NCBI RefSeq assembly: GCF_023650515.1
Contig: NZ_CP096016.1
Location: forward strand, 2,916,001 to 2,980,000
Reading direction: 5' to 3'
DNA from: Alkalimarinus coralli
GTDB lineage: Bacteria; Pseudomonadota; Gammaproteobacteria; Pseudomonadales; Oleiphilaceae
DNA length: 64,000 nt
The stretch's first letter is position 1, and the number at the start of each line of letters is the position of its first letter. Made by a program: the position numbers and the translations under genes. The notes beneath the pieces are model-generated. The model saw nothing but the letters and a program-made list of their open reading frames with translations, was not told the origin of the DNA and did no database searches. This document shows, piece after piece, positions 40,397-62,813 of the stretch.

Positions 40397-43300
40397 TAAG
40401 TTCTGACCAGATCGATTTCGGCGGTGATTTCATCATGTAGCGACGCACCGATCGCAGAGCGTTTTTGCTCTGCCATGCGCCGATCAATTTCCTCCCATGT
40501 CACCTCACATAAGTGGCTTTCATGAAGCTCAGGATCCCGCTCGGCAATGAGCAATGATCTCGCTGACTCTCGCGCTAAATTCAGATTTTTATAGGGCGTA
40601 ATCAAATTGACGTGTATATGAAGTTCCTTGAAGACACGAAGCACTCTTCGGCTAACTGCCTCAGCGGTATTTGAAAATGCCTCATCCAAAAATACTGTGC
40701 AATAAATAGGCTTATCATACCCATCTGGAGTCAACACGTAAGCAAGACTCGCGGCAACGATAGTACCGGCAAACGACTCTTTTTCACCGCCTGACTTTCC
40801 ACTACTAGACTCAAGCACATCACGCACACTGAACGTCTGCGAATCAATCTCTTCAGCAAAGAATGACATTTGATATCTTGGATCTAGCAGCCTCAAACTT
40901 TCCATATTGTTGGACGTTCCTGGCGCACTCGCTTTCTCAAGAATTTCCACAACTTCAGCCAAAAGGTTAAATCGAGCTTCATGATCATCACTTGTCGCCT
41001 GACTTAGCGCACTTCTAACTTTACGCTCAAACTCCTGAACATGCGGATACTTTTCACGTTTTGAGCCAAGCTTTAAGTGACTGCCTTGCTTAAATTCAGT
41101 TCGCTTCAACACGCGATTGATTGTATCGATCCGCTCTAAGATATCTTCTCTCTCAGATTCAAGCTTGGTCTTAATTCGAGCCAGAGATTGAGTTGCGTGC
41201 TTATTTAAGCGCTCTTTGAACTGATCGATTAAATCGGGCAAACCCTCTTTTTCAATATAGGAGTAATGCTCTAAATAATCTGGCAGTCCATCTAAGCCAG
41301 TGGGCCAATCAACCGTAAGGGGCTGCCATTTATCTTTTCCTCTAAAGGAGCCCATAATGCCATTTGCAGAGTTTTCAGCAGTGTTTTTAGCAGATCGGAC
41401 TTTTTCCAATTCGCTATCCAGCGTTTTTTCAAACTCCGATTGTTGATCTGCTATTTCTAAAGTGACGACACCAATTCGATCCGACAGGAGTGTCCTAACT
41501 TCATCACTCATACCAGTTGACGCCAATAAACGGTATTTCTCAGCCTGGCGTTGCGCATCACCCTTTTTGGTTTCTAATGCACCTTCATCCTTTTTGAGTT
41601 GCTCTTTATTTTTCTGAATATCTTGCAACAGCTTCTTAGCTGCATCCCAGCGAGATTTAGCCAACTCAAGGTTTCCGCCTGATTGTTCAAGTCTCTCCAA
41701 GTCGGCTTTCACTGTGTCCAAGCGCTTCTGCCAATAGGGTGCGTCCACTTGCTCCCAATTATAGCCATCAATTCTTTCCCAAAGCTTAGCTCTCTCAGCG
41801 ATATTGTTGAGGGACTCTCGTGCCTGGGATAACGTTGCAGCCAACTCTGCCACGCGAGATTCTGCTTCTTTCTCATCGTTATTTAAAAGCACTAAGCGTG
41901 ACTTATTCGAAAAACCAAGACTCCAACTTCTGCGATCATCTATCTTCCGCTGATCTTTCTTTTCAAAGCGGCCTCGTTCCATATGCACGAGACCTTCCTT
42001 TGTCATTGAGAATGGCGTCGCATCAAGCTCATCGGTACCAGACACACATCGCAAATCAAACTTATTCAAGTGAGCTTTTAGCCAATCACGATATGGGTGA
42101 TCTTTCCATACCAATTTACGAAGGTAGCCACGCTCATTAAATTCAGTAAAGTTTGACGGCCTATCTTGAGAATTGTATTTCGCTACAACCTGAGCACGAA
42201 CATGCAAGCCGGTATGCCGTACATTGAGCCAGCGAGTCACCATTGAGTAATTCTTTTGAGGTACTAACAAAGTCGTCCTGAGGCCACCTAGCGCACGCTC
42301 AACAGCTCCCTGCCAAGCTTTCTCATCGTCTTTAACATCAAGTAATTCACCAATAAAAACCAGCTCATCACCAGATAAATTAAGCGACTCGATCATTTCA
42401 TCACGAAGCTGCTGATAGCGGACATCGATGTTTGAGTCTGGGCGAGCTTCTATCTCCCGTATCTCGTCTTTAATATCGTTTAAGCTTTTCTGTTGCTCGC
42501 TCAACTGTGCTGCAATGCCACCAAAATAATCTTGGCTTTGCTTAGTGTCATCTTCGATTTTTTCTAACTTTAAAGTCGCTGCACGCTTATTCGAGATAAA
42601 TATTTCTTCGTTCAGCTCAGCATCCAGCTCCAAACTGCGACAGTCACTTTGATAATTTGAGGATGCTTGTATGACAGAGTTAAGCTTGTCCTTAGCATGC
42701 TGAATGTCTTTCTCAAGGGATTCGATCTTATCGCCACCAAGGTTGAGGTACTCCTCATGCCTTTTCTCTACCGAATCCTGTGCATCATTCTCTTCTTTTT
42801 CGGCGCGAGCAATAGACCTTCCAAGCAATGCTAGCTCTTCTTCTAACTCACTCAGCTTTTTTGACCAAAGCATTGAGAGTGCCTCACCAAAGTAAACGCT
42901 TAAATGATTTTTCTGCAGATGAAGCTTCTCTAAAGCAAGCTTGGATTCGGCAATGGATTCTGAAAGTTCAGGTAATCTACTCAAGTGAGATTTTTGCTCT
43001 TTAGCATCAATCAGCTGTTCGTGAATGGCGACGAGATCAGAGAACTCTTCAACAACCTTCTTGGCATCCTCTTTTACACCACTAGGTTCCAAGACTAATT
43101 CACGGATAAGTTTTGTAAGATCATCTATCTTCTTGAGGCCCAGCGCACGCGATAACAAAGCAGGCGCATTTTTGTTGTCCATGTATAGATGCTTGCGATA
43201 AAGCTCCTGGTAATCAGTAAAGTTGCTATCACAATCGGTAATGGCAGGATCGTCACGCAGCCATTGTTTCAACTTCCTAGCATTTCCTTCACCAAATGCG

Positions 43301-43794
43301 TCTAACAACTCTTTTAGTTGCATGTTCCTTTTTGCAACAAGATAAACCCGCTTAACATCGCTAAGTGTATTAGTTGAGCTCGCTGTCCAAAAAAGTGCCG
43401 CCAGAGTAATACTTGAACCATCTTCACATTGGTAAAGCGCTCGAAGTCCAGTCACAACCCCTTTCTCACGCTTACTTTTGACTCGCGTGGAAGATCCATC
43501 ATGAGCAGACCCAAAGCTTCCACGCATATAGGATAAAAGTGATCTATCAGAGCGGTCGCCCTGAGCCGCAGCAACGTTAAAAGTTGCTTTTCCTGCTGGT
43601 AAAAGTAGAGCCATTAGCCCATCAATAAAGGTCGACTTTCCAGCGCCGTTATCACCTGTTACCAAAGTTCCATCAGAATCGATAGAAGCAGTATGCAAGC
43701 CATGAAAAGAGCCCCAGTTGAAAACCGACAACTCCGCTAATCTTATTTGACCTTGAGCAAACAAGTCAGCTCGTGATGTTGTAACGTCATTCAT
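40396..43794 (-). CDS. jetC: Wadjet SMC-like ATPase JetC
   Basis: 1132-residue SMC-type motor that extrudes DNA loops and senses small circular DNA. Walker A in LVTGDNGAGKSTFIDGL, long coiled coil (about 240-1000) with a central hinge-like block, signature SSGKSGGEKESFAGT and Walker B TVFLDEAFSN. The frame extends to a TTG at 43806; the ATG at 43794 overlaps the jetB stop as ATGAATGA, a translational-coupling arrangement, and is preferred. Confidence 0.92.
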   Translation of the reverse strand: MNDVTTSRADLFAQGQIRLAELSVFNWGSFHGLHTASIDSDGTLVTGDNGAGKSTFIDGLMALLLPAGKATFNVAAAQGDRSDRSLLSYMRGSFGSAHDGSSTRVKSKREKGVVTGLRALYQCEDGSSITLAALFWTASSTNTLSDVKRVYLVAKRNMQLKELLDAFGEGNARKLKQWLRDDPAITDCDSNFTDYQELYRKHLYMDNKNAPALLSRALGLKKIDDLTKLIRELVLEPSGVKEDAKKVVEEFSDLVAIHEQLIDAKEQKSHLSRLPELSESIAESKLALEKLHLQKNHLSVYFGEALSMLWSKKLSELEEELALLGRSIARAEKEENDAQDSVEKRHEEYLNLGGDKIESLEKDIQHAKDKLNSVIQASSNYQSDCRSLELDAELNEEIFISNKRAATLKLEKIEDDTKQSQDYFGGIAAQLSEQQKSLNDIKDEIREIEARPDSNIDVRYQQLRDEMIESLNLSGDELVFIGELLDVKDDEKAWQGAVERALGGLRTTLLVPQKNYSMVTRWLNVRHTGLHVRAQVVAKYNSQDRPSNFTEFNERGYLRKLVWKDHPYRDWLKAHLNKFDLRCVSGTDELDATPFSMTKEGLVHMERGRFEKKDQRKIDDRRSWSLGFSNKSRLVLLNNDEKEAESRVAELAATLSQARESLNNIAERAKLWERIDGYNWEQVDAPYWQKRLDTVKADLERLEQSGGNLELAKSRWDAAKKLLQDIQKNKEQLKKDEGALETKKGDAQRQAEKYRLLASTGMSDEVRTLLSDRIGVVTLEIADQQSEFEKTLDSELEKVRSAKNTAENSANGIMGSFRGKDKWQPLTVDWPTGLDGLPDYLEHYSYIEKEGLPDLIDQFKERLNKHATQSLARIKTKLESEREDILERIDTINRVLKRTEFKQGSHLKLGSKREKYPHVQEFERKVRSALSQATSDDHEARFNLLAEVVEILEKASAPGTSNNMESLRLLDPRYQMSFFAEEIDSQTFSVRDVLESSSGKSGGEKESFAGTIVAASLAYVLTPDGYDKPIYCTVFLDEAFSNTAEAVSRRVLRVFKELHIHVNLITPYKNLNLARESARSLLIAERDPELHESHLCEVTWEEIDRRMAEQKRSAIGASLHDEITAEIDLVRT

Positions 43795-44731
43795 TGGCTT
43801 CACCAATTGCTTCCCCGTCTATGTTATCAATACGGCTGTTATCAACAGGACTTGCTTGAACCGAAGTACCTTCTGTTTGCTGCGCCAATAGTGTGTACTC
43901 GGCCAACATGCTCTCTAAAAAGCTCGCACTGACCACATAACGAATAATCGGAGTTATTTCGTATCGATCTTCAGTCCCGCGAATCGTAGATAACACCTTC
44001 CTCTTAACCATCTCCTTCACTCGAGCTAGCAACTTTTTACGATCTTTAGATACATGATCAGTAATTGGGAGAAAAGGGGTGAGATAGGATTCAAGACGTT
44101 CAATGTCTATCGTAATTTTTTGCTCTCCGGCCGACTCTCTGTCTTGATAATGTTTTCTCAGAACCAGCAATATCAGAGTGTCGTAAAGCGATAGTGCTCT
44201 CTTGGGTATCAATGTTGTCGATTCATCTAATTCAAGATCATCTTGATTCTCAGAGTCAGATTCGACATTAATGTCACCGATATCATTCTGATAATCGGCA
44301 CTAGCAACAAACGCCACCCCCATTTTTTGATCAAGAACTAACTGCAGGTAAACTTCCGACAAATGCTTTCGTATTGCAGATTCATGTCGACAAAGCAACT
44401 CAAAGAGCTTGGATTTTTGCGAAGCCATCACTGAACCTTGCCGCATTAGGTGCACCAGAACCCGCCTTGCATCGTGAGGCATTGTTTCAGAGTGAACAGC
44501 AGAGTCGCTTTGCATTACGGAAGAGGCTAAGGCTTCATCTTCAGACGGCCGAGATGTACTTTCACCCAGCCCCATAGCACTTTCGGAAAGCTGACTTTCC
44601 GGAGCATCTGCTTTGACCACTTCATTCTCGGCAGACTCTTCTTCAGAACCTGGCTTGCCGCCGCTCTTATTGTCGCTCTCTTTATCCATGACGAGAGAAA
44701 AGAAACTGTTCGGAGGAGAATTATTGGTCAT
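43787..44731 (-). CDS. jetB: Wadjet kite-like subunit JetB (DUF4194), with acidic extension
   Basis: 314 residues. The DUF4194 core (about 85-300) reads ARRVLVHLMRQGSVMASQKSKLFELL, YDTLILLVLRKHYQDRE and YEITPIIRYVVSASFLESMLAEY, two winged helices expected for a kleisin-binding KITE subunit. Two acidic, low-complexity stretches are added: an ~80-residue Ser/Glu-rich N-terminus and an insert around 150-175 (DIGDINVESDSENQDDLELD). Compared with JetB proteins I know, this is long. The start codon choice is uncertain; M15 (VMDKESDNK) is an alternative. Confidence 0.88.
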   Translation of the reverse strand: MTNNSPPNSFFSLVMDKESDNKSGGKPGSEEESAENEVVKADAPESQLSESAMGLGESTSRPSEDEALASSVMQSDSAVHSETMPHDARRVLVHLMRQGSVMASQKSKLFELLCRHESAIRKHLSEVYLQLVLDQKMGVAFVASADYQNDIGDINVESDSENQDDLELDESTTLIPKRALSLYDTLILLVLRKHYQDRESAGEQKITIDIERLESYLTPFLPITDHVSKDRKKLLARVKEMVKRKVLSTIRGTEDRYEITPIIRYVVSASFLESMLAEYTLLAQQTEGTSVQASPVDNSRIDNIDGEAIGEANE

Positions 44732-44769
44732 AGTTTTTCCTTAAAGCTTTTTATTCAGGAGGCGTCCTT

Positions 44770-46311
44770 TTACAACGACAACTCATCAATATCTTCGGGG
44801 AATAAATCGAGGGTCAACAGGTAAGTAGGTATTGATGCTTTCAACATAGCTCCTTGCTTATCCATCAATTCCACATCTTCTTTTTGCTCCAAGGCCGTTG
44901 CCCCCACTGCTTTGGCCACTCGTAGATAGGCAACCAGTTCTTCCAAACCAGACTCCAATGGATTCTTAGCAGCCAACCCGGCTATCGACATCGGGCCATG
45001 CTCTTTGAGCGAGTCGAATGTTTTATGTGCAATTTCCCTAACCTGAACTGCATCCAAGCAATCGAGAACATGAGAGCTTGGTTCACGACTGTTTGCTTTT
45101 TCTTCCACACCTGATGTGTCTAACTTATCGTCAGGGTTTCTTAGTCGCATAGCTTCTGGTGACTTAATTTCGATGGGGCCAACAGGTAAACTAAGCGTGG
45201 TTTCGGTTTTTAAGTCCACTCTTAAGCCTAAACCGTCATCACGCATCCCATCCCTTAACAACACAGCCTGCCTTTCAAGTTTTGATAGCAAGCGATCAAC
45301 CGCTTGATTTTCTGCCGCAGCGCCACTTTCGATATAAGAACGAAGACCTTCTTCTGTGCGACGCCTAATGCGAAAAACGCGATCACTTTCGCGGCTTAGC
45401 TCTCGCATCAGTTGATTCAAGAATTGTTGCTGACTACCAGATAGCTGCTTAGCGACAGGCCTATTCAAAATGCTGCGAAGCTGCTCACGAAACTCCATTG
45501 ATCTGTTTTGGTCGCAGAGCAATTGAAAGAACCCCTCAAATGCGCTTCCGGCCTCAGTGGTAGAAAGGAATGCTTCTTTCTCCATAACGGATAAAAGAAT
45601 ATCGCCACGAGATACATCTCCCTCGATTATCTGCACCCTCAGCTCTTTGTCTAACACTCTAATTTCGTCTTCTACTCGACGAAAATCACCCGTTAACACT
45701 GAAGCAAGTTGGTAGATTTCTCTAATTCGCTCTCGCTGCTCTACCTCGCTAAGCTCAGGCACAACTCCGGCCTGTAGCGCATCTATTTCGCGCTGAATCT
45801 CAGCTTTTTTACTTTCCAGCAAGGTGACTCGCTCATCTACATTGGGGCTTATAGCAACAGCTAAGTCACGAACCGCTTCCTGAACAATGCGTAAATGCGA
45901 TGCTGTGGTGCCAGAGTTCCTTTCATCCAAACCCTTACAGAACCTAAGCGCAATCTCACTTGCGTCGGTTTTGGTTAAAGAATCATCCATTTCTCGCAGC
46001 CAACCGGTTCGAATCCACTGATTCAGATAAGTCGCCGCAGACGTTTCTGTGGACCAAATACCCAATTCACGGCTACGCTCTATTTCTGCATGCAGCATTA
46101 TTCGAGCGCGACCGTATGGAATTTCACTTTCCTCAGAAAATAAATCAGCAATAAAAGCCAATATATAAGGCGCATTGTCGGCTCTTAAAAGTTTCCATGA
46201 GGCATGCTCGGCAAATAAGCGCCGATACTTTGCCTGTAAACCCTGAAAGCTCAATGCACCTTCCTCATAGCTCTCTCCTTGCCCTTTATTTAAAACAGTC
46301 GGCTCATTCAC
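44770..46311 (-). CDS. jetA: Wadjet kleisin subunit JetA (DUF3375)
   Basis: 513 residues, DUF3375. N-terminal LQAKYRRLFAEHASWKLLRADNAPYILAFIADLF is the typical start (read in parts), followed by helical segments and coiled coil, then the C-terminal winged helix (MSIAGLAAKNPLESGLEELVAYLRVAKAVG). It bridges the JetC heads in the Wadjet complex. First gene of the operon jetA-B-C-D, which by its DUF3375/DUF4194/SMC/DUF2220 content fits type I Wadjet, an anti-plasmid system. Confidence 0.9.
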   Translation of the reverse strand: MNEPTVLNKGQGESYEEGALSFQGLQAKYRRLFAEHASWKLLRADNAPYILAFIADLFSEESEIPYGRARIMLHAEIERSRELGIWSTETSAATYLNQWIRTGWLREMDDSLTKTDASEIALRFCKGLDERNSGTTASHLRIVQEAVRDLAVAISPNVDERVTLLESKKAEIQREIDALQAGVVPELSEVEQRERIREIYQLASVLTGDFRRVEDEIRVLDKELRVQIIEGDVSRGDILLSVMEKEAFLSTTEAGSAFEGFFQLLCDQNRSMEFREQLRSILNRPVAKQLSGSQQQFLNQLMRELSRESDRVFRIRRRTEEGLRSYIESGAAAENQAVDRLLSKLERQAVLLRDGMRDDGLGLRVDLKTETTLSLPVGPIEIKSPEAMRLRNPDDKLDTSGVEEKANSREPSSHVLDCLDAVQVREIAHKTFDSLKEHGPMSIAGLAAKNPLESGLEELVAYLRVAKAVGATALEQKEDVELMDKQGAMLKASIPTYLLTLDLFPEDIDELSL

Positions 46312-46618: not shown

Positions 46619-47527
46619 TTGATTGAAAACAAAGCACTAGAAGACATCAGCCAAGCGCAGCAAGAAAGGCTATTCCATATAGATTTCAAGCTACGCTTTT
46701 TAGGCGCAGTCAACAGAAATGACCTGGTCAGCCGGTTTGGCATTAAAGCCGCCGCCGCGACTCGGGATATTTCTCTATACAAAGAACTGGCACCTAAAAA
46801 CCTTGTCTACGACACAAAAGCTAAGACCTATATAGAAGCCAATCAATTCAAGCCCCTGTTTGACTATCAAGGGAGCCAAGCATTATCTGCATTGTGCTAC
46901 GGGCTAGGTGACGATCATGTATCAGGCAGCACGTCTTTGGTCACTGCAGAGTCGCCAACTCAACTCAATTTTCCAAACCTAGATGTGTTGGCTGAGATCA
47001 CCAAAGCCATTCACCAGAAAAAGGCGCTTAAGATAGACTACCGGTCCCTCTCCAGTGGTTTAAGCCAACGAGAAATCGTGCCTTTTGCTCTGGTGGATAA
47101 CGGCCTTCGCTGGCATGTAAGAGCCTTCGACCGAAAAAGAGAAAGATTCACCGACTTTGTCATTAACCGCATAGCAAAACCGAAACTGCTCAATACAGAA
47201 ATTACAAAGCCTGAAACGAAAGAAGGCGATATTCAGTGGAACCGTATTGTTGAAATGCACATTGTTCCGCACCCTAACTTGAAACACCCAGAAACCATTG
47301 AGACCGAGTATGGAATGGCAAATGGAATGCTCAAGATACAAGTGCGAGCTGCAGTTGCTGGCTACGTACTAAGACACTGGAATATCGATTGCTCTGAACG
47401 ACACATCCTCACAGGCCCTGAAAATCATCTCTGGCTGCAAAACAGGCAGACCTTATACGGTGTTGAAAACCTGGTTATTGCCCCTGGCTATCAAGACGAA
47501 ACTATCACGGACGATATGGAGCGCTAA
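46619..47527 (+). CDS. BrxR/CapW-like WYL-domain transcriptional regulator
   Basis: 302 residues, TTG start. N-terminal winged helix ([47 protein letters not shown]), a WYL domain (about 120-195, [29 protein letters not shown] and [22 protein letters not shown] as separate motifs) and a C-terminal WCX-like domain. This architecture is that of BrxR/CapW repressors that guard BREX, CBASS and other defence loci and respond to nucleic acid ligands. It ends with ATGGAGCGCTAATGC, so its stop overlaps the helicase ATG by one base; it leads the operon. Confidence 0.85.
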
Positions 47528-50500
47528 TGCTAAAACTCGAAGACATTAAAAAAGATGCGCAGGTGCGCGGCATCCAAGCTGAAGAAATTGTCCGCGTCGT
47601 GCAGGTTGAACCGGTTGGTGATGCCGCAATTACGGTTTACTACAAAGACAGCCAAGGCAAACTGGGCGAGCAAATGCTTTTCCGCTCAGACGAGGCACGC
47701 CTTGAACTGGCTACTGTTGGTAGACCATGGGCATTTGATGCGCCGGGTGCCGAGTTTAAATTGGGCTTAGAAGCTTACCGTATCAGCCAAGCTGCCCTGT
47801 TTGACCCAATGATGGCGGTACACACCTCAAACGTTGAGCCACTGCCTCACCAGATCTCTGCGGTATACGAAGCCATGCTACCAAAGCAGCCTTTGCGTTT
47901 TGTCTTGGCCGATGACCCCGGTGCCGGTAAAACCATTATGGCTGGGCTGTTAATTCGTGAGCTCATTATGCGCGGTGATGCCAAGCGTATTTTGATCGTT
48001 TCTCCCGGCTCTCTCACCGAGCAGTGGCAGGATGAGTTACTCGAAAAGTTCGGTGTTACCTTCGATATTTTTAGTCGAGAGAAGCAAGAGCAATGCGCTT
48101 CTGGCAACTACTTTGATGAATCCGACCAACTCATTTGCCGTTTAGATCAGTTATCGCGCAACGAAGAGTTCCAGGAAAAACTCAAAAACACCGAGTGGGA
48201 CATCATCATAGTGGATGAGGCCCACAAACTGTCGGCCAGTTACTTCGGCACCAAAATCAATAAAACCAAGCGTTTTCAACTGGGTGAGCTCCTTGGCTCC
48301 ATCACGCGCCACTTCTTGCTGATGACTGCAACACCACACAACGGTAAGGAAGAAGACTTTCAGATTTGGCTATCCCTGTTAGATGGCGATCGCTTTTACG
48401 GTAAGTTCCGCGAAGGTGCCCATAAAGTTGATGTGTCAGACATGATGCGTCGTATGGTGAAAGAAGAGCTACTCAAGTTTGATGGTACGCCACTGTTCCC
48501 AGAGCGCCGCGCTTATACAGCCAATTACGAGCTTTCGCCGATGGAGGCATCGCTTTACGAACAAGTGACCACCTACGTGCGTGAAGAGATGAACCGCGCC
48601 GATAACCTCGACAGCAAAAAGAAGAACAACGTTGGCTTCGCACTAACCATGCTGCAACGCAGGCTGGCTTCCAGCCCAGAAGCCATCTACCAGTCATTGA
48701 AACGTCGCCGCAAGCGCTTAGAAGATCGCCTAGAAGAAACCAAACTCATGGCGCGTGGTCAGGCTGTTCAAAAAGATGGCCAGTCTGGTGCTGGAGTAGC
48801 CGAAACATTGGGCGAATACACTGTTAAAAAGAAAATCGATATACCGGATAACTTTGACGAACTCGATGAAGACTTAAGCGCAGAAGAATACGAAATTCTC
48901 TCCGAGCAAGTGGTCGATCAGGCATCGGCAGCAGAAACCATTCCGGAACTTGAGGCCGAAATACTCAGTTTAAAAGATCTAGAGCATCAGGCGCTTACTG
49001 TTGTGCAATCCGGCAACGACAAAAAGTGGGAAGAACTTTCTTACCTGTTGCAAGACAAGCCAGAAATGTTCACCGCCAGTGGTGCTCGTCGCAAGCTTCT
49101 GATATTTACCGAACATAAAGACACCCTGAACTACTTGGTGAAGCGCATCGGTGACATGCTCGGCAACGAAAACGCGGTGCGTACTATTTATGGTGGCACC
49201 AACCGGGATGAACGCCGCAAAGTACAGGAAGAGTTCCGTAACGATCCAGAAGTGGTTGTATTAGTTGCCACCGATGCCGCAGGCGAAGGTGTGAACCTGC
49301 AAAACGCCAACCTCATGGTGAACTACGACCTGCCTTGGAACCCAAATCGCCTGGAACAGCGCTTTGGTCGTATTCACCGTATTGGTCAAACCGACGTCTG
49401 TCACCTCTGGAATATCGTTGCCGCCGAAACCCGTGAAGGTGAAGTATTCAAAAAGCTCTTCGACAAGATTGAGATCGAAAAAGAAGCACTGGGCGGCAAA
49501 GTCTTCGATGTGCTCGGTGAAGCCTTCGACAACGTATCGCTAAAAGACCTATTAGTTGATGCCATTCGCTATGGCGAAGCCCCAGAAACCAAGGCCAAAA
49601 TGAACGAAGTGATCGATGGTGCGCTCGATGCTGAGCACTTGAAAGAAATCCTGCGTCGTAACGCTTTGGTCGAGCAGCACATGGGGCTAGAAGAGCTCTA
49701 TGCTGTTAAAGAAGAAATGGAAAAGGCAGAAGCCCGTAAACTACAACCTTACTTCATTCGTGCCTTTTTTACCGAAGCATTCCAAACCTTGGGCGGTGAA
49801 ATGCGCAACCGTGAATCGGGCCGCTTTGAGGTGCGCCATGTGCCTGCCGCCATTCGTGAGCGCGACCGCATCATCGGCGAAACGCGAACCCCAGTATTGC
49901 GAAAATATGAACGTATCTGCTTCGAAAAGCAGCATGTTCGGCAGCAAGGCAAGCCGATGGCCGACCTGATTCACCCATCGCACCCATTAATGCATGCCTC
50001 AACCGATTTGGTGCTAGAGGCCCATCGCCCCAAGCTCAAGCAAGGTACTGTGTTGGTAGACCCAAATGATGATGGTTTAGAACCAAAAGTACTCTTCATG
50101 GTGGACCATACGGTAAGAGAAGGCGGCAACTCCACAGATATCGCATCGCGTAGATTGCAGTTTGTAGAGATCGACGAAAAAGGCAATGCCATCAATGCAG
50201 GCTGGGCACCTCACCTCGATTTGCAACCGATCGATGACTACGACTTAAAACTGGTTGGCGGTGTTCTTAATGCCCCCTGGTTGAATGGAGAGCACAACAA
50301 CCTTGAAGCATTAGCTTTAAACCACGCGTCACAGCAACTGGTGCCCGAACACTATGGCGAAGTGAAAGGTCGCCGTGAACGCCAGGCAGATAAAACCCTT
50401 GCGGCAGTGAATGAGCGCCTAGTGAAAGAGATTAACTACTGGTCTGACCGCTACATCAAACTGCAAGACGATGTGAACGCAGGCAAACAACCCCGCATGC

Positions 50501-51090
50501 AGCCTGAAATGGCACGTCGCCGCGTGGATGAACTCACCGCTCGGTTAGAGCAGCGTAAAACAGAACTAGAAGCACTGAAAAACGTCGTCTCCAGTACGCC
50601 AGTGGTAATGGGCGGCGCCCTAGTCATTCCGCAAGGCTTGTTGGCTCATCGCAAAGGCGAAACCCAATTTAGTGTCGATGCCGAAGCCCGCTCTCGCGTG
50701 GAGCGCATCGCCATGCATGCCGTAATGAATATCGAGCGCAGTTTTGGCTTTGAAGTAAAAGACGTTGGTGCAGAAAAATGCGGTTGGGATGTTACCTCAC
50801 GCCCACCTGCCAATGCCGATGGATCAATCCGGCCAGATCGTCACATAGAAGTGAAAGGCCGCGCCAAAGGTAAAAGCACCATTACTGTTAGCCGTAATGA
50901 AATCATCTACGGCTTAAACCAGGCAGACAAATTTATGCTCGCCATAGTCATTGTCGACGGAGAAGAATTTGAAGGGCCGTATTACGTAAAAACGCCGTTC
51001 ACCGCCGAGCCAGACTTTGGTGTAGCCAGTATTAATTATGATCTCAGTGACCTGCTGTCGAAAGCAGTATCACCGGAGCAAACGACATGA
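47527..51090 (+). CDS. SNF2-family helicase with C-terminal DUF3883 nuclease-like domain
   Basis: 1187 residues. Superfamily 2 helicase: Walker A DDPGAGKT (129-136), DEAH (230-233), [14 protein letters not shown] and arginine finger motif [11 protein letters not shown] (about 611). The C-terminus is DUF3883, with Asp1088 in CGWDVTS and HIEVKGR (Glu1108, Lys1110), a spacing compatible with a PD-(D/E)XK fold. It is the helicase partner of the DUF1156 methylase and DUF499 ATPase downstream. The last 58 residues are duplicated at 53198-53373. Its TGA overlaps the next ATG (ATGA). Confidence 0.88.
50912..51087 (+). repeat. Direct repeat copy A: 3' end of helicase gene
   Basis: 176-bp segment coding helicase residues ~1130-1187. 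Copy B is at 53198-53373. By hand count there are 12 differences in the first ~170 bp, mostly at third codon positions, and divergence in the last six bases. Confidence 0.9.
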
Positions 51091-52502
51091 AACTGACAGA
51101 AATTACTATCGAAAATTACCGGTGTTTTGAAAGACTTAATATTTCATTTCACCCAGAAGTCACTGTGTTAATTGCACCCAATGGTGCAGGTAAAACAACC
51201 ATTATTGATGCGGCACGCATTGCTATGTGGCCACTCGTAAAAGCCTTTGACTTGGGAAGCCAAACGGGGAAATCAGCAACCATACAAATTGAGGACGTAC
51301 GTTTAACGCGTCGTGATCAAAACAACATGGAGGCAGTCATACCTTCTATTGTGGATGCTCAGGGAATTTGGCCAGGAGAGTCTGAAGAGAAGCATTGGAT
51401 CCAGACACGAGAAAAACTTAAGTCAGGCACCAATACTCTGCAAGATGAACATGCTAAAGCGTTAACCAAACTTGGTAAGAAGCTTCAGAACCAAGTTCGC
51501 GACGAAAAAAACCTTACAGCAATAGATTTGCCTCTCATTGTTTATTTGGGGACGGGTAGGCTTTGGTATCAAGGACGTTATACGTCTACAGTAGCCGACA
51601 AAAAATTAGATAAAAGCATGCAATCTCGCCTTTGGGGCTATCAGAACTGCTTAACTACTGCATCGAGCTACAAACAATTCGAAGATTGGTATGGCTGGGT
51701 TTACAAAAGCTATCGTGAACTTCAAATACAACAATTGGAAGGCTCCGATTATTTTGACTTTCAACTCTTAGAGCAATTTAAATCTGCCATTCAAGTCGTC
51801 AAGCAATCTGTAAATGCACTTACTCAAAAAGCAACAGGATGGCACGACATTGAATATAGCGTTAGCCAGCGCCAGCAACTGGTTATGAACCACCCTGTAC
51901 ATGGTGCCTTACCACTGAGTATGCTAAGTGATGGTTTGCGCAATATGGTTGTCATGGTGTCAGACATAGCCTTTCGCTGTATCAAACTAAACCCACACTT
52001 CGGTGAACAAGCGGCTCTAAAAACCGAAGGTGTGGTCATGATAGATGAAGTGGATATGTTTCTTCATCCAACTTGGCAACAAACCGTGATTGGCTCATTG
52101 CGAGAAGCATTTCCAAAAATTCAGTTTATTGTGACTACCCACAGCCCTCAAGTATTGTCTACGGTACCTGCTGAATGTATCCGTGTTTTAAGACACGAAC
52201 CTGATCCCAACACAGGGGAAACAATATCAACTGCCGAACGAAAAGATGAGCAAACTATTGGCATCCCGAGCAGCGATATTCTGATCGATTACCAAGAAGT
52301 GAACCCAATTCCTCCTGTAGAGGAAGCACAATGGGTTGCTGATTACACCGCATTAATCGAGCAAGGCCAACATGAAAGCGATCAAGGAAAGGCACTACGA
52401 ACAAAACTCATCGATATATATGGGGAATCCCATCGCGTTTTGTTGGATGCAGATAAACTCATTCGCTTCCAGTCCTTCAAGCAAAAGAACAATAAGGGTT
52501 AG
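51087..52502 (+). CDS. ptuA: PtuA-like AAA ATPase (Septu)
   Basis: 471 residues, SMC/RecF-like ATPase. Walker [10 protein letters not shown] (30-38), signature-like [14 protein letters not shown], Walker [14 protein letters not shown] (Asp320, Glu321) and the switch VTTHSPQVL. The short PtuA type found in Septu and retron-associated PtuAB pairs. It starts inside the helicase stop (ATGA) and is followed two bases later by the HNH gene. No reverse transcriptase gene is nearby, so it is not part of a retron here. Confidence 0.85.
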
Positions 52503-52504
52503 CG

Positions 52505-53179
52505 ATGCATAAGTTAGATCGAGACAACACAGAAGCGCCTCAGTGTTTAAGTGAATATGATCACAATACACAGACTTGGGATAATTTCGGTGGCGAATGT
52601 AAAAAGCAACTTCGTGCGGCACTTGTGCAAATGCAAGGTGTGCCAGGCGTAACAACGGCGGAAGCATCTGAATATGGAGTGCGTTGTGCCTATTGCGAAG
52701 ATGCTATTCACCATGCAGGACACATTGAACATTTTCGCCGAAAAAATCCAAGCCACTTTCCAGAATTAACATTCGAATGGAGCAACCTGTTTTTAGCTTG
52801 TGGCTCAAACGACCACTGTGGCCATTACAAAGATCGCTCCAGAGCTGAAGCCTATAACCCAGATAACCTTATCAAGCCCGACATAGAAGACCCCGATGGT
52901 TATCTATATTTTCATTCTTCCGGCGAAGTCAGGGCACGCGCCGGTATAGGTGCAAACGATGTTCGCAAAGCCACCGAAACCATTCGAGTGTTTGGTTTAG
53001 ACAATCGAGTGCTGAAAGGTAATAGAGCCAGAGCAGTACAGCCCTATAAAAAAATGCTGGAAGAAATAGCCGATTGGGATTCTGAGTTAATAGCTGAGTA
53101 TATCCAAGAAGAAATTGAAAGCACCCAGTGGCAAGCATTTTCCACAACGATCAAACACTTCTTGGCAGGAGCCTGTTAA
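52505..53179 (+). CDS. ptuB: PtuB-like HNH endonuclease (Septu)
   Basis: 224 residues of the TIGR02646/PtuB type. Zinc-stabilised HNH: CAYC (61-64), GHIEHF (His73, His76), EWSNLFLACGSNDHCGHYK (Asn94, Cys99, Cys105, His107). The nuclease effector that PtuA activates against phage. The stop TAA overlaps the ATG of the next small ORF (TAATG). The pair separates the helicase from the methylase of the host operon. Confidence 0.87.
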   Translation: MHKLDRDNTEAPQCLSEYDHNTQTWDNFGGECKKQLRAALVQMQGVPGVTTAEASEYGVRCAYCEDAIHHAGHIEHFRRKNPSHFPELTFEWSNLFLACGSNDHCGHYKDRSRAEAYNPDNLIKPDIEDPDGYLYFHSSGEVRARAGIGANDVRKATETIRVFGLDNRVLKGNRARAVQPYKKMLEEIADWDSELIAEYIQEEIESTQWQAFSTTIKHFLAGAC

Positions 53180-53376
53180 TGAACGCTGCTGTATTTCGCT
53201 TAAACCAAGCAGACAAATTTATGCTCGCCATAGTCATGGTCGACGGAGAAGAGTTTGAAGGGCCGTACTACGTTAAAACGCCGTTCACCGCCGAACCAGA
53301 CTTTGGTGTAGCCAGTATTAATTATGATCTCAGTGACCTGCTCTCAAAAGCAGTTGCGCCTGAGCAAACCGTTTAA
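53179..53376 (+). pseudogene. Remnant duplicate of the helicase C-terminus
   Basis: 65-codon ORF starting at the TAATG overlap with the ptuB stop. After six unrelated residues (MNAAVF) it matches the last 58 residues of the helicase ([19 protein letters not shown] onward), differing at a few positions. The nuclease-like motif (GWDV/EVKG) of DUF3883 is not included, so it cannot be active on its own. It ends 9 bases before the methylase ATG, exactly where the helicase stop would have been before the PtuAB insertion. Confidence 0.85.
53198..53373 (+). repeat. Direct repeat copy B: 3' end of helicase gene
   Basis: Partner of copy A at 50912-51087. Together they bracket ptuA and ptuB. Reading frame is kept through the copy. 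Confidence 0.9.
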
Positions 53377-53385
53377 GGCAGATAA

Positions 53386-56307
53386 ATGAGTAACATTAAA
53401 ATTCCAAAGAAATTGATTGAAGTGGCATTGCCTCTCGACGACATCAATGCTGCTTGTGCTCATGAAAAGCAACCAGGGATTGGCGCACACCCGAGAGGCC
53501 TTCACTTGTGGTGGGCAAGACGCCCTTTACCTGCTGCTAGAGCTGTTATTTTTGCGCAAATGGTAAATGATCCTTCTGAAACTGTTTCTGGCGATAAACG
53601 CCTTCGTGAAACTCAACTAAAAATGCAAAATGAACGAGAAAGACTGTTTGATATTATTCGTGAATTGGTGAAGTGGGAAAACACCAATAATGAAGAGGTA
53701 TTGAATAAAGCGCGTGAAGCTATTAAAGAAAGCTGGCGCTTTACCTGTGAGCTAAACAAAAAGCATCCGCAAGCTAATGAGCTTTTTAATCCGGAAAAAC
53801 TACCTGCTTTCCATGACCCCTTTGCTGGTGGAGGTGCAATACCGCTTGAAGGACAGCGTTTAGGTTTAGAAAGTTTCGCTAGTGACTTAAATCCTGTTGC
53901 GGTCATGATCAATAAGGCGATGATTGAAATACCTCCAAAGTTTTCAGGTCAAGCACCGATTGGCCCAACGAACCCAGAAGACAAACAATCAGACCTAATA
54001 AATGATTGGTCAGGAGCCAGAGGACTAGCGGAGGACGTGCGCAGATATGGCCATTGGGTAAATCAAGAAGCGACCAAACGAATAGGTCACCTCTATCCAA
54101 AAATAAAAATAACAGCCGATATGGTGAATGAACGCCCTGACCTAAAAGCATACGAAGGGAAAGAGTTAACTGTTTTAACATGGTTATGGGCAAGGACAGT
54201 TAAGAGTCCAAATCCTGCTTTTAGCAGTGTAGATGTACCTTTAGTTTCGACATTTGTACTTTCAAGCAAAAAAGGTAAAGAAGCTTATGTAGAACCACGC
54301 ATCGATGGTACAAATTATGAGTTTAAAGTTATTAAAGGGAAACCAACCTCTGAAGCAAAACAAGGAACAAAAGTAGGTCGAGGCGGAAACTTTCGATGCC
54401 TAATTTCTGATACTCCAATTCCAGTTAAAGACATAAGGGCGCAAGGACAAAAGGGTACCTTTAAGCAACGACTAATGGCCATCGTTGCTGAAGGCAAGCA
54501 AGGTCGAGTCTATCTATCTCCAACCCAAGAGATGGAAGAAATCGCTAACTCAGCCACTCCAGATTGGAAGCCAAACACGGAAATTAATCATAATCCGCGA
54601 GATATACGAACACAGCTATATGGGCTGAATGTCTATGGCGACCTATTTACCTCGAGACAACTTTTCGCACTCACGACATTTTCAGATTTAGTGCAAGTTG
54701 CTCGCGAAAAGGCAATTGAAGATGCCATAGCTAGTGGTATGGAAAATGATGACCTAGGCATCGATCAAGGTGGAACAGGGGCAAAAGCCTACGGAGATGC
54801 GATTGCGGTCTATTTAGCGTTTGCCGTTGATCGTTTGGCTGACTACAACAGTAGTATCGCGACTTGGAAAGCTTCGGGCGAGCAAGTTATGCAGACGTAT
54901 AAAAGACAAGCCCTACCAATGACTTGGGATTTTCCAGAATCAAATATCCTTGGCGAGAAATCTATCTGCTGGCTAAAGGCAATTAAATACACTTCTGACA
55001 ACCTGAATGCGTGTACCAAACTTAATTCTTTGATTGCGGGTTCTGTAGCACAAGCAGATGCTGCTACTCAGTCAATATCTACTGGAAAAGTTATTTCAAC
55101 AGACCCGCCATACTACGACAACATAGGTTATGCGGATCTATCAGATTATTTTTATGTTTGGATGCGCCGATCTCTAAAATCAATATATCCAAACCTGTTT
55201 TCAACCATGGCTGTGCCTAAGAGCGAAGAGTTAGTAGCAACACCTTACCGCCACGGAAGTAAAGAAAGTGCAGAATCTTTCTTTTTGGATGGAATGACTC
55301 GAGCCATTCATAGCATGGCAGAAAAAGGAAATCCTGCTTTTCCTGTAACCATTTACTATGCATTCAAACAATCAGAAACCAAGGAAGGCAGCACATCCAG
55401 TACTGGTTGGGAAACATTCCTCGAGTCGATTATCAGTGCAGGTTTTTCAATTGATGGAACGTGGCCAATGAGAACAGAATTAGCCAATAGGATGATTGCA
55501 TCAGGCACAAACGCTCTAGCATCCTCTGTCGTTTTGGTGTGTAAAAAACGAGGTGAACAAGCAGAGTCTATTTCACGCCGACAATTCCAACGTGAACTCC
55601 GTGAAGAAATGCCCGAAGCCCTTGAAGCGATGATCGGCGGCAGTACTGGTGCATCACCTATCGCCCCAGTAGATTTAGCACAAGCCGCTATCGGCCCTGG
55701 CATGGCCATTTTCTCGAAGTATGAGGCGGTTCTGAATCAAGACGGTAGCAAAATGAGTGTGCACGATGCGCTTATTTTAATTAACCGCGCCATCACCGAT
55801 TACCTCAACCCAGACAGCGGTAACTTCGACAACGACACTTTATTCTGCGACGACTGGTTTAGCCAGTACGGTTGGGGTCAAGGACAGTTTGGAGAAGCTG
55901 ACACTCTCGCTCGCGCTAAAGGCACATCGGTAGATGGTGTGCGTGATGCCGGAGTGATTGAATCCGGCGGCGGTAAAGTCCGCCTGTTGAAGTGGAGCGA
56001 GTACCCCACTGATTGGGACCCAAAAACTGATACCCGCACCCCGATATGGGAAGCCTGCCACCAGATGATCCGCGTACTGAACCAGCAAGGCGAAGCCGAA
56101 GCAGGCAGCCTGCTTGCTCGTATGCCTGAGCGAGGCGAGCACATTCGCCAGCTGGCCTACCACCTATACACACTATGCGAACGCAAAAAGTGGGCAGAAG
56201 AAGCCCGCGCCTATAACGAATTAATTGGTTCCTGGCATGCCATTGTCGCCGCTTCGCACGAAGTAGGCCATCGCGGTACCCAGTCTGAACTTGGCTTAGA
56301 TTTTTAA
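53386..56307 (+). CDS. DUF1156 DNA methyltransferase (COG1743-like)
   Basis: 973 residues. N-terminal DUF1156 ([38 protein letters not shown]). SAM-binding motif [14 protein letters not shown] (Asp144), catalytic [14 protein letters not shown] (Asp573), which predicts N6-adenine or N4-cytosine methylation. Large spacer between motif I and the DPPY motif. Works with the upstream helicase and the downstream DUF499 ATPase; together they form a helicase-methylase-ATPase defence module (named Hma in defence surveys, from memory). Starts 9 bases after the helicase remnant. Confidence 0.87.
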
Positions 56308-56322: not shown

Positions 56323-59160
56323 ATGAGTTTAAAACCATGGCGTGAAATTGCCCGCCCTCACAAAGATGTACTAGAAGGCACTTTCAAGCAATCTGAATTT
56401 GCGGCTGATATTTCGCAAGTCGCTTCAGGGACTGCGACAGTCGAATATCAAGATGCGGAAAAGTTCTTCTCCCGTACCTTTATTACTGAAGGCATGCGCT
56501 TATTGTTAATGTCGGTTGCGCAGCGCTTAGCAGGCCAAGGTGGTGACCCGGTCATTCAACTGCAAACCGCATTTGGTGGTGGTAAAACCCATACCATGTT
56601 AGCGGTTTTACATTTGGCCTCTCGCCAAGTCAGTACCGATAAGCTTGAAGGTATTCCACCGCTATTGGATGAAGCGGGCATCCATGACTTACCCAGTGCA
56701 AAAGTAGCAGTCATAGATGGCATTAAGCTTTCTCCAAGCCAACCACAACAGCATGACAATATTGCGGCGAACACGCTGTGGGGTGAATTAGCTTGGCAGC
56801 TACTCGGCGATGAAGGTTACGCCATGGTTGCCCAGAGCGATGCCGATGGTACATCACCGGGTAAAGAAGTGGTGCGGCAGCTGGTTGAGAAAGCAGCGCC
56901 TTGTGTCATCCTCATTGACGAGCTCGTGGCCTTTGTTCGCCAATTAGAAGTGGGCAAACAATTTAAAGCCGGTACTTTCGACAGCAACATTTCATTTATT
57001 CAGGCGCTCACCGAAGCCATGAAAGCGGTCCCCAACGCGATTCTATTGGCCTCGTTACCGGAGTCTGAATTAGAAGTGGGTGGCACCATGGGCCAACGTG
57101 CTCTGGAATCGCTGGAAAAATACTTTGCACGTGTTGAATCGGTTTGGAAACCTGTCGCCAGCACTGAAGCCTTTGAAATTGTACGCCGCCGTTTGTTTGA
57201 ATCGGCTGGAGAACGTGCCGAAGTAGAAGGGATTAGCCGACAGTTCTCTGATTTCTATCGCACCAATAGTGACAAGTTCCCGCTGGAAACACAGTCGAAT
57301 GTGTATTTTGAGCGACTTTGCCAGTCTTACCCCATTCACCCAGAAGTATTCGACCGCTTATATGAAGACTGGTCGACCTTGGATAAATTCCAGCGCACAC
57401 GTGGCGTGTTGCAGTACATGGCAATTGTGATTCACCGCCTTTGGAATTCAGATAACAAAGACGCGTTGATTATGCCGGGCTCCATTGCCTTGGACGACAG
57501 CAATGTACGCAATAAGAGCATTCACTACTTACCTCAAGGTTGGGAGCCGGTACTGGAAAAAGAAGTGGATGGCCCACGTTCAGAGCCCGCTAATATTGAT
57601 GGCCACGATACCCGTTTTGGTAGCGTACAGGCTGCCCGCCGCGCAATGCGCACCATCTTTTTAGGCAGTGCCCCTTCGAATGCGGAACAAGGTGTTAAAG
57701 GCTTAAACCAGGAACACATTTTATTAGGCTGTGCCCAGCCTGGGCAAACCATCGGTGTGTTTGAAGATGTGCTTAAGCGCTTACGAGATCGTTTGCATTA
57801 TTTATATTCAGAGCAAGATCGTTACTACCTGGACACACGGCCAAACCTACGCCGTGAAATGGAAAGCCGAAAGCAAAATATTAATGAACCCCAAGAGCTG
57901 CACCCATTATTGAAAGAGCGTGTAGGAAGGGTATTTGGTAGAAACCATTGTTTTGGCGGGATTCATGTTTTCACCCCTTCGGTAGACGTACCTGACGACT
58001 ATGCGCCAGGCCCACGCTTAGTAGTGCTGCCACCAAATGCTGCATACAGCCGTGGTGATGCCAGACAAGCCTATGAAGCCGCTGAGGAGATACTGCGCAA
58101 TCGCGGCGACCAACCAAGGCAAAAGCAAAACCGATTGATTTTCTTTGCTGCCGATTATGATGTGGTTAGCCGTTTAAAAGATGCGGGTAGAACTTATCTT
58201 GCGTGGAAGAGCATCGTGTCTGATGTGGCTGATGGGAAATTGGACCTAACGGTATCACTGTCTAAACAGGCTAAGCGCAACGCAGATACTGCCGAGCAAA
58301 GCTTACATCAAATCGTGCGTGAAACTTATAAGTGGATAATCTGCCCGGTTGAAGAATTTTCTAAAGGTAAGCCTCAGCTTGTATGGGAGTCTGTATCAGT
58401 ATCTCCGGCGGCACAAAACTTAATTTCTGAAATAGAAAATAAGCTAAAGGAAGAAGAGTGGCTGATTTCTGAATGGAGCCCTATTCATCTGCGTAACACA
58501 CTTCAACAGTGGTATCTGAAAGATGGCGTAACCGAGGTAGGCGCGTTAAAGGTTTGGCAAGACAGCTGCCACTACTTATACCTGCCTCGCCTTGTAAATG
58601 ACCACGTTTTCAAAAATGCGATTACTTCGGGCTTAGACAGCGAAGATTATTTTGGCTTTGCTTCGGGTAAAGATGGTGACCGTTATCTAGGTTTCGTATT
58701 TGGCCGTGGCTCTATGTCTATATTGGATGACTCTTCATTGTTAATCGAGCGTGAAGCAGCGGCTGATTATCGTGAGCGAACAAAACCAGCACCACAGCCT
58801 GAGCCCACACCACCAACTGGGGGGCAACCAACACCTACTCCGACTGGTGGAACAGGCCCGACTGGAGGGTCACAGCCTCAACCAACACCTGGCGGCACGA
58901 CGCCTACACCAGTTCAAACGGCAGCTAAGAGACAGTTCTACGGCAATATAGAACTCGACCCAGTGAAAGCAAAAATGGACTTCGCCACCATTGTTGATGA
59001 GGTGGTGCAGCAATTCACCGCGAAGTTAGGCGTGGAAGTGTCGATCTCTGTCGAGATTCAAGCTCGCTCAAAGGATGGGTTTGATGAAGCGCTTCAACGC
59101 ACCATCAAAGAGAACTGTAATGTGCTGCGGTTCAGCAGTTCGGAGTTTGAAGAGGAATAG
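56323..59160 (+). CDS. DUF499 ATPase (COG1483-like)
   Basis: 945 residues, AAA-type ATPase. Walker [11 protein letters not shown] (Gly85-Thr89) and Walker [11 protein letters not shown] (near residue 200). Residues about 822-868 form a Pro/Thr/Gly-rich linker ([11 protein letters not shown] and similar) before a ~80-residue C-terminal domain ([17 protein letters not shown]...). GGGAGAAAAAAG site upstream. Constant partner of DUF1156 methylases; mechanism unknown. It is the last gene of the helicase-methylase-ATPase operon. Confidence 0.85.
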
Positions 59161-59222: not shown

Positions 59223-60227
59223 GTGGCCACAACGGTAATAGAAGCTTTTAACAAATTTCTGGCCGATCAGGTGAATTTGTGTGATGACGAAACCAAGATA
59301 GCCAGAGCTAGCCGTGATTGGCTGGTTGGGCAAATCTGTAATTTTCCATCAAAGGTCGATCACTTTCCTCAAGTGTATACGGAGAAAAATATTTTCTTTG
59401 GTTCATTTGCTCGAAGTACAAAGAAGAGACCCCTTGATGACATTGACATCATGATTTGTCTAAACGCTCAAGGCTCAACTTATTTCGAAGGACTATTAGG
59501 TGGCATTTCAATATCTGTTCCTGAACAATCAACACAGCTTCGGCGTCTATGTAACGATGGAACAGATACTCTCAACTCAATCAAGGTTGTAAATAAAATC
59601 GTCTCTGCCCTGAATAATGTTCCTCAATATGCAAGTGCAGACACTAAACGAAATCAAGAGGCCGCTATATTGTCTCTGACAAGTTATGACTGGAGCTATG
59701 ACATTGTTCCCTGTTTTTTCACTTCGCCAGACACATATGGAAATTCATTCTATTTAATTCCTGACGGAAGCGGGTCATGGAAAAAGACCAACCCGATACT
59801 CGATCAAAATCGGACGCAAGCAATAAATGCAAACCATAATGGCAACGTACTTAACGTGATCCGGATAATGAAATACTGGAACAAACGGCCAACGATGCCA
59901 TCAATGAGTTCCTATCTTCTTGAGGTAATGATCTTAAATTATTATTCGACGAGATCTGATGCTGCAAGTGAATTTGTAGACTTGGAGCTTCCTAAGATAT
60001 TCGAATATGTCTGGCTAAACGTGACTAACGATGTGTCAGACCCGAAAGGTATTCAAGGCAATATCAATTCCCTAACGCAAGACGAACGAAGCAAAATATC
60101 CACCCGAGCATGGGCTGATAAAAACAAAGCTATTGAAGCACGACAATTTGAGTCCGACAAGGATCACCGCAGCTCTATTAAAAAATGGGGTGATATCTTT
60201 GGCAGCAACTTCCCGGATTATGGATAA
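59223..60227 (+). CDS. CBASS SMODS-family nucleotidyltransferase (CD-NTase)
   Basis: 334 residues, GTG start with an AAGGA site. Polymerase-beta-like fold: GS at 60-61 in IFFGSFARSTKKRPLDDID, DxD at Asp73/Asp75 and third Asp160 in SYDIVP. Expected to make a cyclic oligonucleotide upon phage infection. It is followed 6 bases later by an S-4TM effector gene. No Cap2/Cap3 or HORMA/TRIP13 genes are present, so a minimal (type I) CBASS. The product nucleotide cannot be predicted here. Confidence 0.87.
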   Translation: MATTVIEAFNKFLADQVNLCDDETKIARASRDWLVGQICNFPSKVDHFPQVYTEKNIFFGSFARSTKKRPLDDIDIMICLNAQGSTYFEGLLGGISISVPEQSTQLRRLCNDGTDTLNSIKVVNKIVSALNNVPQYASADTKRNQEAAILSLTSYDWSYDIVPCFFTSPDTYGNSFYLIPDGSGSWKKTNPILDQNRTQAINANHNGNVLNVIRIMKYWNKRPTMPSMSSYLLEVMILNYYSTRSDAASEFVDLELPKIFEYVWLNVTNDVSDPKGIQGNINSLTQDERSKISTRAWADKNKAIEARQFESDKDHRSSIKKWGDIFGSNFPDYG

Positions 60228-60233
60228 CCAAAG

Positions 60234-61145
60234 ATGAACAGGATTAATGAATTTCAGTCACAAGACTCGAATGTGAAGATCGCAGCAGCGTTCAGACGCG
60301 CCTACAAAATGGCTAAGATATGGAAGACATGGATATGGATCCCAACCATACTACTCTCTGTACTCCAGCTAATCGTCGCTATCAATATTCAAAAAATCAT
60401 TTCTTTTCCAACTGTAAATCTTGCAGCTTACGTTACCGCCACCACTCTTTTGATGATAATGGCCAGCACTATTGGAAAACACACAAAAATCAATAAATAC
60501 GTCGGTTTAGGTAGCAGTCTACAACGCCTCCACGATTTCAATGTTTTAGGGATAGGAATAAAACCAAGCCCAATTGAAACGCCGCAATCTCAAATAAATA
60601 GACTATCCAAAAAGTGGCTCGACAAAAACAGTCAAGACAAATCTAACCTATCTGAATGGTGGCCAGCTAGGGTTTCCGAGCTAGGAAGGGAAAAAGGCAT
60701 AGCACTCTGCCTACTTTCAACATTTCGCTGGGAAACAGAGATTAGAAAAAAATATGGCGTTGTTTTAGCAATGATATTTATTGCCACTACAGCTCTGAGT
60801 TTATTTCTGATGTATACATTAAACTACAGAATTGAAGATTACATTGTTCGAATACTCGTGCCGATTTCACCTTTCCTAGGTTTATTGATCGATGAATGGT
60901 TGTGCAATCGAACCAGCATAGATACTGCTTCAAAGTGTTCTGACCAGTGCTTTCAGCTATGGCAGAGTAATGGCGTTGATATTAGTAGTGAATTAGACCA
61001 ACTTAGCTACTTATGGAACGGCTACAGGGCTAACTCAAACCCTATATTCGAGTGGTTATACTGGACGACACAAAAAGTTACGAACGAAGATATGATAATC
61101 GATGCCAATGCTCTTGTAGATGATGCTTTAGTTCAGAGCCAATGA
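60234..61145 (+). CDS. S-4TM family pore-forming CBASS effector
   Basis: 303 residues with four membrane segments: about 33-55 (TWIWIPTILLSVLQLIVAI), 61-81 (LAAYVTATTLLMIMASTIG), 176-196 (VVLAMIFIATTALSLFLM) and 204-223 (VRILVPISPFLGLLIDEWL), with a soluble middle and C-terminal part. Matches the SMODS-associated 4TM effector type that is thought to permeabilise the inner membrane when the CD-NTase signal binds, killing the infected cell. Its stop overlaps the convergent downstream gene by 13 bases. Confidence 0.8.
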   Translation: MNRINEFQSQDSNVKIAAAFRRAYKMAKIWKTWIWIPTILLSVLQLIVAINIQKIISFPTVNLAAYVTATTLLMIMASTIGKHTKINKYVGLGSSLQRLHDFNVLGIGIKPSPIETPQSQINRLSKKWLDKNSQDKSNLSEWWPARVSELGREKGIALCLLSTFRWETEIRKKYGVVLAMIFIATTALSLFLMYTLNYRIEDYIVRILVPISPFLGLLIDEWLCNRTSIDTASKCSDQCFQLWQSNGVDISSELDQLSYLWNGYRANSNPIFEWLYWTTQKVTNEDMIIDANALVDDALVQSQ

Positions 61146-61928: not shown

Positions 61929-61929
61929 A

Positions 61930-62388: not shown

Positions 62389-62422
62389 GTTATTGTCCTC
62401 CGTTATTTATTTTGAAATGCGC

Positions 62423-62704: not shown

Positions 62705-62773
62705 TTATGCTCTCCTAAAACACGGTCGCTCTATGCCATCCATGGCATCGCGACATACCGTATGTCCTATACA

Positions 62774-62797: not shown

Positions 62798-62813
62798 CAA
62801 CAATCAAGAATAT

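Follow-up and report, generated by a model that had tools for sequence, protein, structure and literature searches.

How can a defence cassette come to lie within an operon that encodes a different defence system and leave both neighbouring genes unbroken? The question is raised by a stretch of 64,000 nucleotides from Alkalimarinus coralli (contig NZ_CP096016.1, positions 2,916,001 to 2,980,000), referred to here as the window. In it, the phage-defence pair ptuAB, a type I Septu system, is lodged within the operon of a second defence system, Hma (hmaA-hmaB-hmaC). The embedding of one defence system in another is documented. Hma has been noticed as a frequent companion of type I Septu (Payne 2021, PMC8565338), Septu in Hma is named as an example of embedding (PMC12255303), and a preprint on Septu in Hma (Payne 2024, 10.1101/2024.01.29.577857) is cited in PMC12255303 and in PMC11411939, the latter of which also cites GmrSD-like genes in Hma. 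The embedding is thus not new; its route of entry is left open in the published passages. The genes concerned are the following.

46619–47527, + strand: gene for a WYL-domain protein, immediately 5' of hmaA (Pfam WYL, E 2.8e-13)
47527–51090, + strand: hmaA, helicase (PADLOC HmaA, 2248 bits, full length; Pfam Helicase_C, SNF2-rel_dom and NOV_C)
51087–52502, + strand: ptuA, Septu ATPase (PADLOC PtuA1, E 2.5e-172)
52505–53179, + strand: ptuB, Septu HNH-type nuclease (PADLOC PtuB1, E 3.2e-74)
53386–56307, + strand: hmaB, DUF1156 methylase (PADLOC HmaB, 1723 bits; Pfam DUF1156)
56323–59160, + strand: hmaC, DUF499 ATPase (PADLOC HmaC, 1627 bits; Pfam DUF499)

The WYL-domain protein is probably a transcriptional regulator. 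By its gene content the operon is assigned to Hma: a helicase, a methylase and an ATPase, each recognized by PADLOC over its full length, are encoded in one operon on the same strand. All five PADLOC models (HmaA, HmaB, HmaC, PtuA and PtuB) were matched over nearly their full length. The assignment to type I Septu follows from a PtuA ATPase gene that adjoins a gene for an HNH-type PtuB nuclease (PADLOC). In Septu type II and its retron relatives a reverse transcriptase gene stands before ptuA (PMC8565338, in the passage on these types), whereas in the window ptuA is preceded by hmaA, with no further + strand ORF of at least 80 aa from hmaA to ptuA. Base composition does not decide on the origin of ptuAB, because its GC3 (38% in both genes) differs from that of hmaA (53%) yet equals that of hmaB (38%). 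The whole operon had no match in E. coli genomes, nor had the HmaB protein any in phages at an E-value cut-off of 1e-30.

The adjoining region on the - strand (40396–46311) carries genes with DUF3375, DUF4194 and SbcC Walker-B domains, which we take to be the make-up of the anti-plasmid system Wadjet (Jet). Directly 3' of hmaC, on the same strand, are a CBASS-type cyclase and a 4TM effector (59223–61145; PADLOC, Pfam). Genes for a phage lysozyme and a DUF6127 protein (- strand) and then a large serine recombinase (+ strand) occupy 61494–64000 and may mark the border of a mobile or prophage region next to the defence genes.

The joints between ptuAB and its host operon are made up of the following elements.

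50912–51090, + strand: copy A, the end of hmaA (compared site by site with the empty loci L121, L177 and L178)
51069–51090, + strand: tail of copy A, different from the empty relatives and by eye like the hmaA end of L046 (sequence comparison)
53179–53197, + strand: 19 bp, putative remnant of a donor hmaB start, consisting of ATG, six codons and one base (compare the TAATG overlap in L073, L122 and L038)
53198–53376, + strand: copy B, a second hmaA end (repeat comparison; matches positions 1113–1175 of the PADLOC HmaA profile)
53377–53385, + strand: spacer of 9 bp, GGCAGATAA, between copy B and hmaB (compared with empty relatives)

A first-pass annotation of this DNA had claimed that about 176 bp of the helicase 3' end recur behind ptuB, and this is indeed the case: 50912–51087 and 53198–53373 are identical in 160 of 176 bases in an ungapped alignment. 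When copy A was compared by blastn to the complete 4.83 Mb genome, two places were found, copy A itself and 53198–53369 (93%, E 3.7e-69), and no third copy; with this E-value the repeat is not due to chance. Its left edge is sharp, at GCTTAAACC, and the 5' flanks of the two copies are unlike each other. The differences are mostly synonymous, as had been proposed (7 of the 8 changed codons in the repeat body), and the 9 bases that had been counted between the second helicase end and the methylase start are confirmed, since copy B stops at 53376 and hmaB starts at 53386.

The homologous segment thus stands in direct orientation on both sides of ptuAB. Direct repeats around a cargo would also be left by a transposon or integrase which duplicates its target. 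We give this explanation hardly any credence: ptuA and ptuB are the only + strand ORFs of at least 80 aa between the copies, so that no recombinase is encoded there, and we know of no such element with a 176 bp target duplication that contains 16 differences.

Translational coupling of the cargo to the host operon had been proposed on the basis of overlapping start and stop codons. Both overlaps exist. At the hmaA/ptuA junction, the ptuA start lies over the hmaA stop (ATGA), and TAATG is present at the end of ptuB. The proposal is half right. The ATG of TAATG (at 53179) does not belong to hmaB; it opens a frame of 65 codons which begins with MNAAVFR, continues with LNQADK and runs through copy B in the HmaA frame. 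The open frame, its coupled start and the mostly synonymous changes might suggest that copy B is maintained as a small protein. Copy B begins at about residue 1130 of HmaA, and the NOV_C match covers residues 1058–1147 (Pfam); it therefore contains only the end of this match and the part downstream, and such a protein would lack most of NOV_C. The one other clear hmaA-end relic among 65 gaps longer than 60 bp (L061, see below) is shorter, and selection before the copies were joined accounts equally well for the synonymous bias. A small protein is thus highly improbable, and copy B would have no function of its own.

Which copy is the resident one was assessed with three genomes from one other family whose loci are empty-slot relatives of this Hma lineage (L121, L177 and L178; HmaA 92–93% and HmaC 88–89% identical to the window). 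Their HmaB is only 56–66% identical to that of the window, and the methylase seems from these values to have been exchanged separately from its partners HmaA and HmaC. The tail of copy B is common to all three empty relatives, and the 9 bp spacer recurs unchanged in L177 and with one base less in L121, while that of L178 differs. The last 22 bp of copy A are unlike all three. On this comparison copy B is the resident hmaA end at the junction, and the tail of copy A is foreign-looking. The first-pass annotation had taken copy A as the true helicase end and copy B as the spare; since the copy B tail occurs in three empty relatives and the spacer in two, this assignment has to be reversed at the junction.

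The likeness to the empty relatives changes inside the repeat. The body has 8 differing sites, of which L121 shares 7 with copy A and 1 with copy B; of the 9 in the tail it shares 7 with copy B, 1 with copy A and 1 with neither. Body sites are distributed 6:2 (A:B) in L177 and 6:1 in L178, with one site like neither, and the tails of both resemble that of L121. The opposite mosaic is based on 17 sites, several of which are adjacent, and one site in each part is contrary; Fisher's test of 7:1 against 1:7, calculated by hand, gives P of only about 0.01, with neighbouring sites not being independent. Copy A alone departs from L121 at 8 sites, 7 of which belong to the tail (P 2e-6 for a tail taken as 21 of 179 positions, the actual stretch being 22). 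Where copy B departs from L121 in the body, 6 of 7 changes are synonymous as compared to 24% expected (P 0.001), which indicates that the two copies had diverged under selection before they were joined. We thus best read copy A as a resident-like body (to 51060) followed by an incoming tail (from 51069), and copy B as an incoming body followed by the resident tail. In L046, whose hmaA end resembles the copy A tail by eye, ptuA comes next.

Two similar copies in direct orientation could also stem from a tandem duplication of the hmaA end within this genome, if ptuAB had gone in between the copies at that time or later. Fresh duplicates would show neither a clustered foreign tail (copy A) nor mostly synonymous changes (copy B), and the 19 bp 5' of copy B would be left unexplained, so that we regard a tandem duplication as very unlikely. 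The mosaic points to a single crossover in which the hmaA end of the resident recombined with that of an incoming molecule, and not to the decay of fresh duplicates.

The 19 bp themselves bear on the origin of that molecule. Between ptuB and copy B stand the bases TAATGAACGCTGCTGTATTTC. In L073, which has the nearest relative of PtuB that was found (61%), ptuB overlaps hmaB as TAATG, and the same overlap occurs in L122 and L038. The 19 bp from the ATG onwards are best read, from this likeness, as the start of a donor hmaB fused to hmaA sequence, and the TAATG most likely comes from a donor with such a ptuB/hmaB overlap. Among the fetched loci, no donor allele was found whose body, tail and hmaB start are as predicted, and an exact 23-base pattern gave 0 matches in viral contigs.

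There is good support for recombination at the hmaA end, and the first-pass proposal that PtuAB entered in this way is upheld. As to the route, we lean towards the view that ptuAB entered from another Hma operon via a single crossover of an end-joined donor piece in the hmaA 3' end. The donor would have been an Hma operon which already carried ptuAB in its hmaA-hmaB slot, and the piece would have comprised the last 176 bp or so of hmaA, ptuAB, and hmaB as far as about codon 6. Joining of its ends, without evident homology, would have generated a circular intermediate, and the circle would then have been taken up through a single homologous crossover within the 3' end of hmaA, with the switch between 51060 and 51069. 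Single-crossover integration always leaves the shared segment on both sides of the cargo. The predicted product has a copy A with resident body and donor tail, and a copy B with donor body followed by the resident tail, spacer and hmaB. HmaA would retain a complete C-terminus, the native start of hmaB would be kept, and the operon would remain continuous by way of the copy B frame.

A linear donor might have sufficed if pairing in hmaA on the left had been combined with an illegitimate joint at about hmaB codon 6 on the right (homology-facilitated illegitimate recombination). No circle is then needed, and the repeat, the resident tail and spacer, the foreign copy A tail and the hmaB remnant are all explained; homology-anchored illegitimate insertion has been proposed for type VI effector modules in passages of PMC5361080. 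This route predicts that copy B is resident throughout, so that its body, rather than that of copy A, should be the more resident-like, and the reverse is seen at 7 of 8 sites (L121), 6 of 8 (L177) and 6 of 8 (L178). The typical product of such events is a deletion in the experiments described in the relevant part of PMC3240628. We therefore consider the linear route unlikely.

The hmaA-hmaB slot was also compared in other loci. From the Hma locus search, 80 of 582 confirmed stretches were kept, and a further search for Hma genomes yielded none beyond the first. There were 115 loci with an hmaB start, from which 25 without a recognisable hmaA end were dropped, leaving 90, the window included (L171–L178 were fetched later and are outside these counts). 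The gap between hmaA and hmaB is at most 60 bp in 25 of the 90 loci, 61–150 bp in 3 and longer than 150 bp in 62, the longest being 6.8 kb. Of 111 listed ORFs of the cargo, 16 were set aside because they were short, lay on the opposite strand or were copy B, and the remaining 95 were scanned. Of these, 20 match the PtuA model PDLC00278 and 21 match PDLC00271, with such ATPase models cross-matching each other. The domains include AAA_21 (23 ORFs) and NYN (10), followed by GmrSD_N, RloB, Schlafen AlbA_2, PemK and DUF4143 (2 each) and by YhcG_C and DUF4435 (1 each).

A quick tree was computed from 82 HmaA C-termini (17 with PtuA, 24 empty, 41 with other cargo), with 8 of the 90 dropped for C-termini below 200 aa. 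On this tree at least 29 changes are needed for the three slot states, against a mean of 35.0 after shuffling; 1 of 200 shuffles gave a value as low. For the PtuA label 14 changes are needed, of which 9 are forced by starred branches. With a shuffled mean of 15.9 and equally low values in 52 of 500 shuffles, this label is hardly clustered. Turnover of slot content is frequent. The hmaA-hmaB slot is thus a turnover hotspot with varied cargo; different cargo at the same point is what the first-pass annotation had named as proof of a hotspot.

Extra DNA also occurs between hmaB and hmaC (1.8 kb in L037, 2.3 kb in L043, 6.6 kb in L057 and 3.5 kb in L059), and this junction is perhaps a second slot; hmaB-hmaC gaps near 500 bp may result from longer HmaC starts, and the value for L046 is wrong. 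No relic of an hmaC start was matched in the hmaB-hmaC gap, and eight apparent hmaB-end relics were dropped because their best query was a stretch wrongly taken from the L046 cargo ATPase. The HmaB proteins of L158 and L024 have in-frame inserts at the same place near residue 450, one with Y1_Tnp (IS200-like transposase) and the other with DUF559; by eye, similar short repeats are found on both sides of these inserts.

The first-pass annotation had predicted two helicase ends wherever cargo is present. As a rule this fails. Clear relics at the protein level were found in 4 of the 65 gaps longer than 60 bp. Two are hmaA ends, in the window (E 1e-36) and in L061 (8e-10), and two are hmaB starts, in L109 (8e-11) and L024 (2e-6). 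In the control, for which 73 loci were searched whole, none of the matches beyond the gaps had an E-value below 8e-5. The ptuAB of L061 is an independent case (PtuB 38% identical to that of the window), with the hmaA-end relic directly after ptuB and further cargo next. L109 and L024 are the mirror image, the likeness in L109 being interrupted. PtuAB loci with no detected duplication occur (e.g., L038, L122 and L157). Such clean junctions would follow if established cargo spreads by ordinary allele replacement.

Several weaker candidates were not counted. These are matches in L038 (E 0.006, reverse strand) and L119 (0.003), a second, weaker match in L061, and matches in L110, L112, L125 and L162 (9e-9 to 1e-3), which all derive from one library member, the hmaA C-terminal sequence L126, and lie 193–220 bp past the assigned hmaA end. 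We suspect that the last four represent a related domain in the cargo; the relic count would rise if they were relics. A DNA-level comparison of the 90 bp 5' of hmaB in the 62 filled loci gave scores of 43.6 for the window, 17.6 for L069 and at most 12.9 for all others, with a maximum of 14.4 in a null set of 354 stretches; L069 is a possible short relic. Likenesses seen by eye in L087 and L157 were not counted; neither is within the best 14 of this comparison. L044 was rejected as a locus with two hmaA ends: its best HmaA match ends at 101, with the hmaA end carried on in a different frame as far as 1736, and it is read as a broken hmaA at a contig edge, with the gap set to 767 bp.

As 61 of the 65 gaps longer than 60 bp have no clear relic, single crossover is at most one route among others. 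Only as a tentative and rather doubtful generalization would we propose that a single crossover in the conserved hmaA end, or its mirror image in the hmaB start, is the usual way of loading the Hma slot. Each insertion would then be reversible by loop-out, because direct repeats flank the cargo, and the slot would be a cargo bay driven by recombination, with scars that for the most part disappear through later exchange of alleles. The legible junctions of the window open the question of how embedding happens to tests by loop-out PCR and by systematic surveys for relics of hmaA ends and hmaB starts.

Among the closest known systems is the published Septu in Hma, which has the same genes as the window; the passages on it in PMC8565338, PMC12255303 and PMC11411939 report neither a duplicated hmaA end, as present in the window, nor a route of entry, and no report of a duplicated hmaA end was found in open-access papers (bioRxiv preprints being outside this coverage). 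The DUF499-centred BREX-related systems (PMC12839542) share the core of helicase, methylase and DUF499 ATPase, and nucleases are lodged in their core loci; in the part concerned, that survey deals with gene content and describes no insertion scars, whereas the window has one. In the displacement of type VI effector modules, as outlined in PMC5361080, cargo enters beside a conserved anchor and the displaced resident segment stays, as it does here. The remnant in that case is an orphan immunity gene, whereas in the window the anchor gene's own end plays this part, with oppositely mosaic copies. Integration of circles by single crossover in E. coli, as described in the relevant part of PMC3240628, gave duplications of 109–950 bp (56 of 60 clones with a duplication PCR product, 14 sequenced), and there, as in the window, the integrated DNA is flanked by the homologous segment in direct orientation; the E. 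coli case is a laboratory construct, that of the window a natural defence cargo. While embedding is already known, a readable arrival scar is uncommon. The window holds a real, legible insertion scar within a known type of arrangement: both junctions can be read, resident and incoming sequence can be separated and the switch point can be given, and they illustrate how entry of a cassette into a multi-gene operon can leave both neighbours unbroken.
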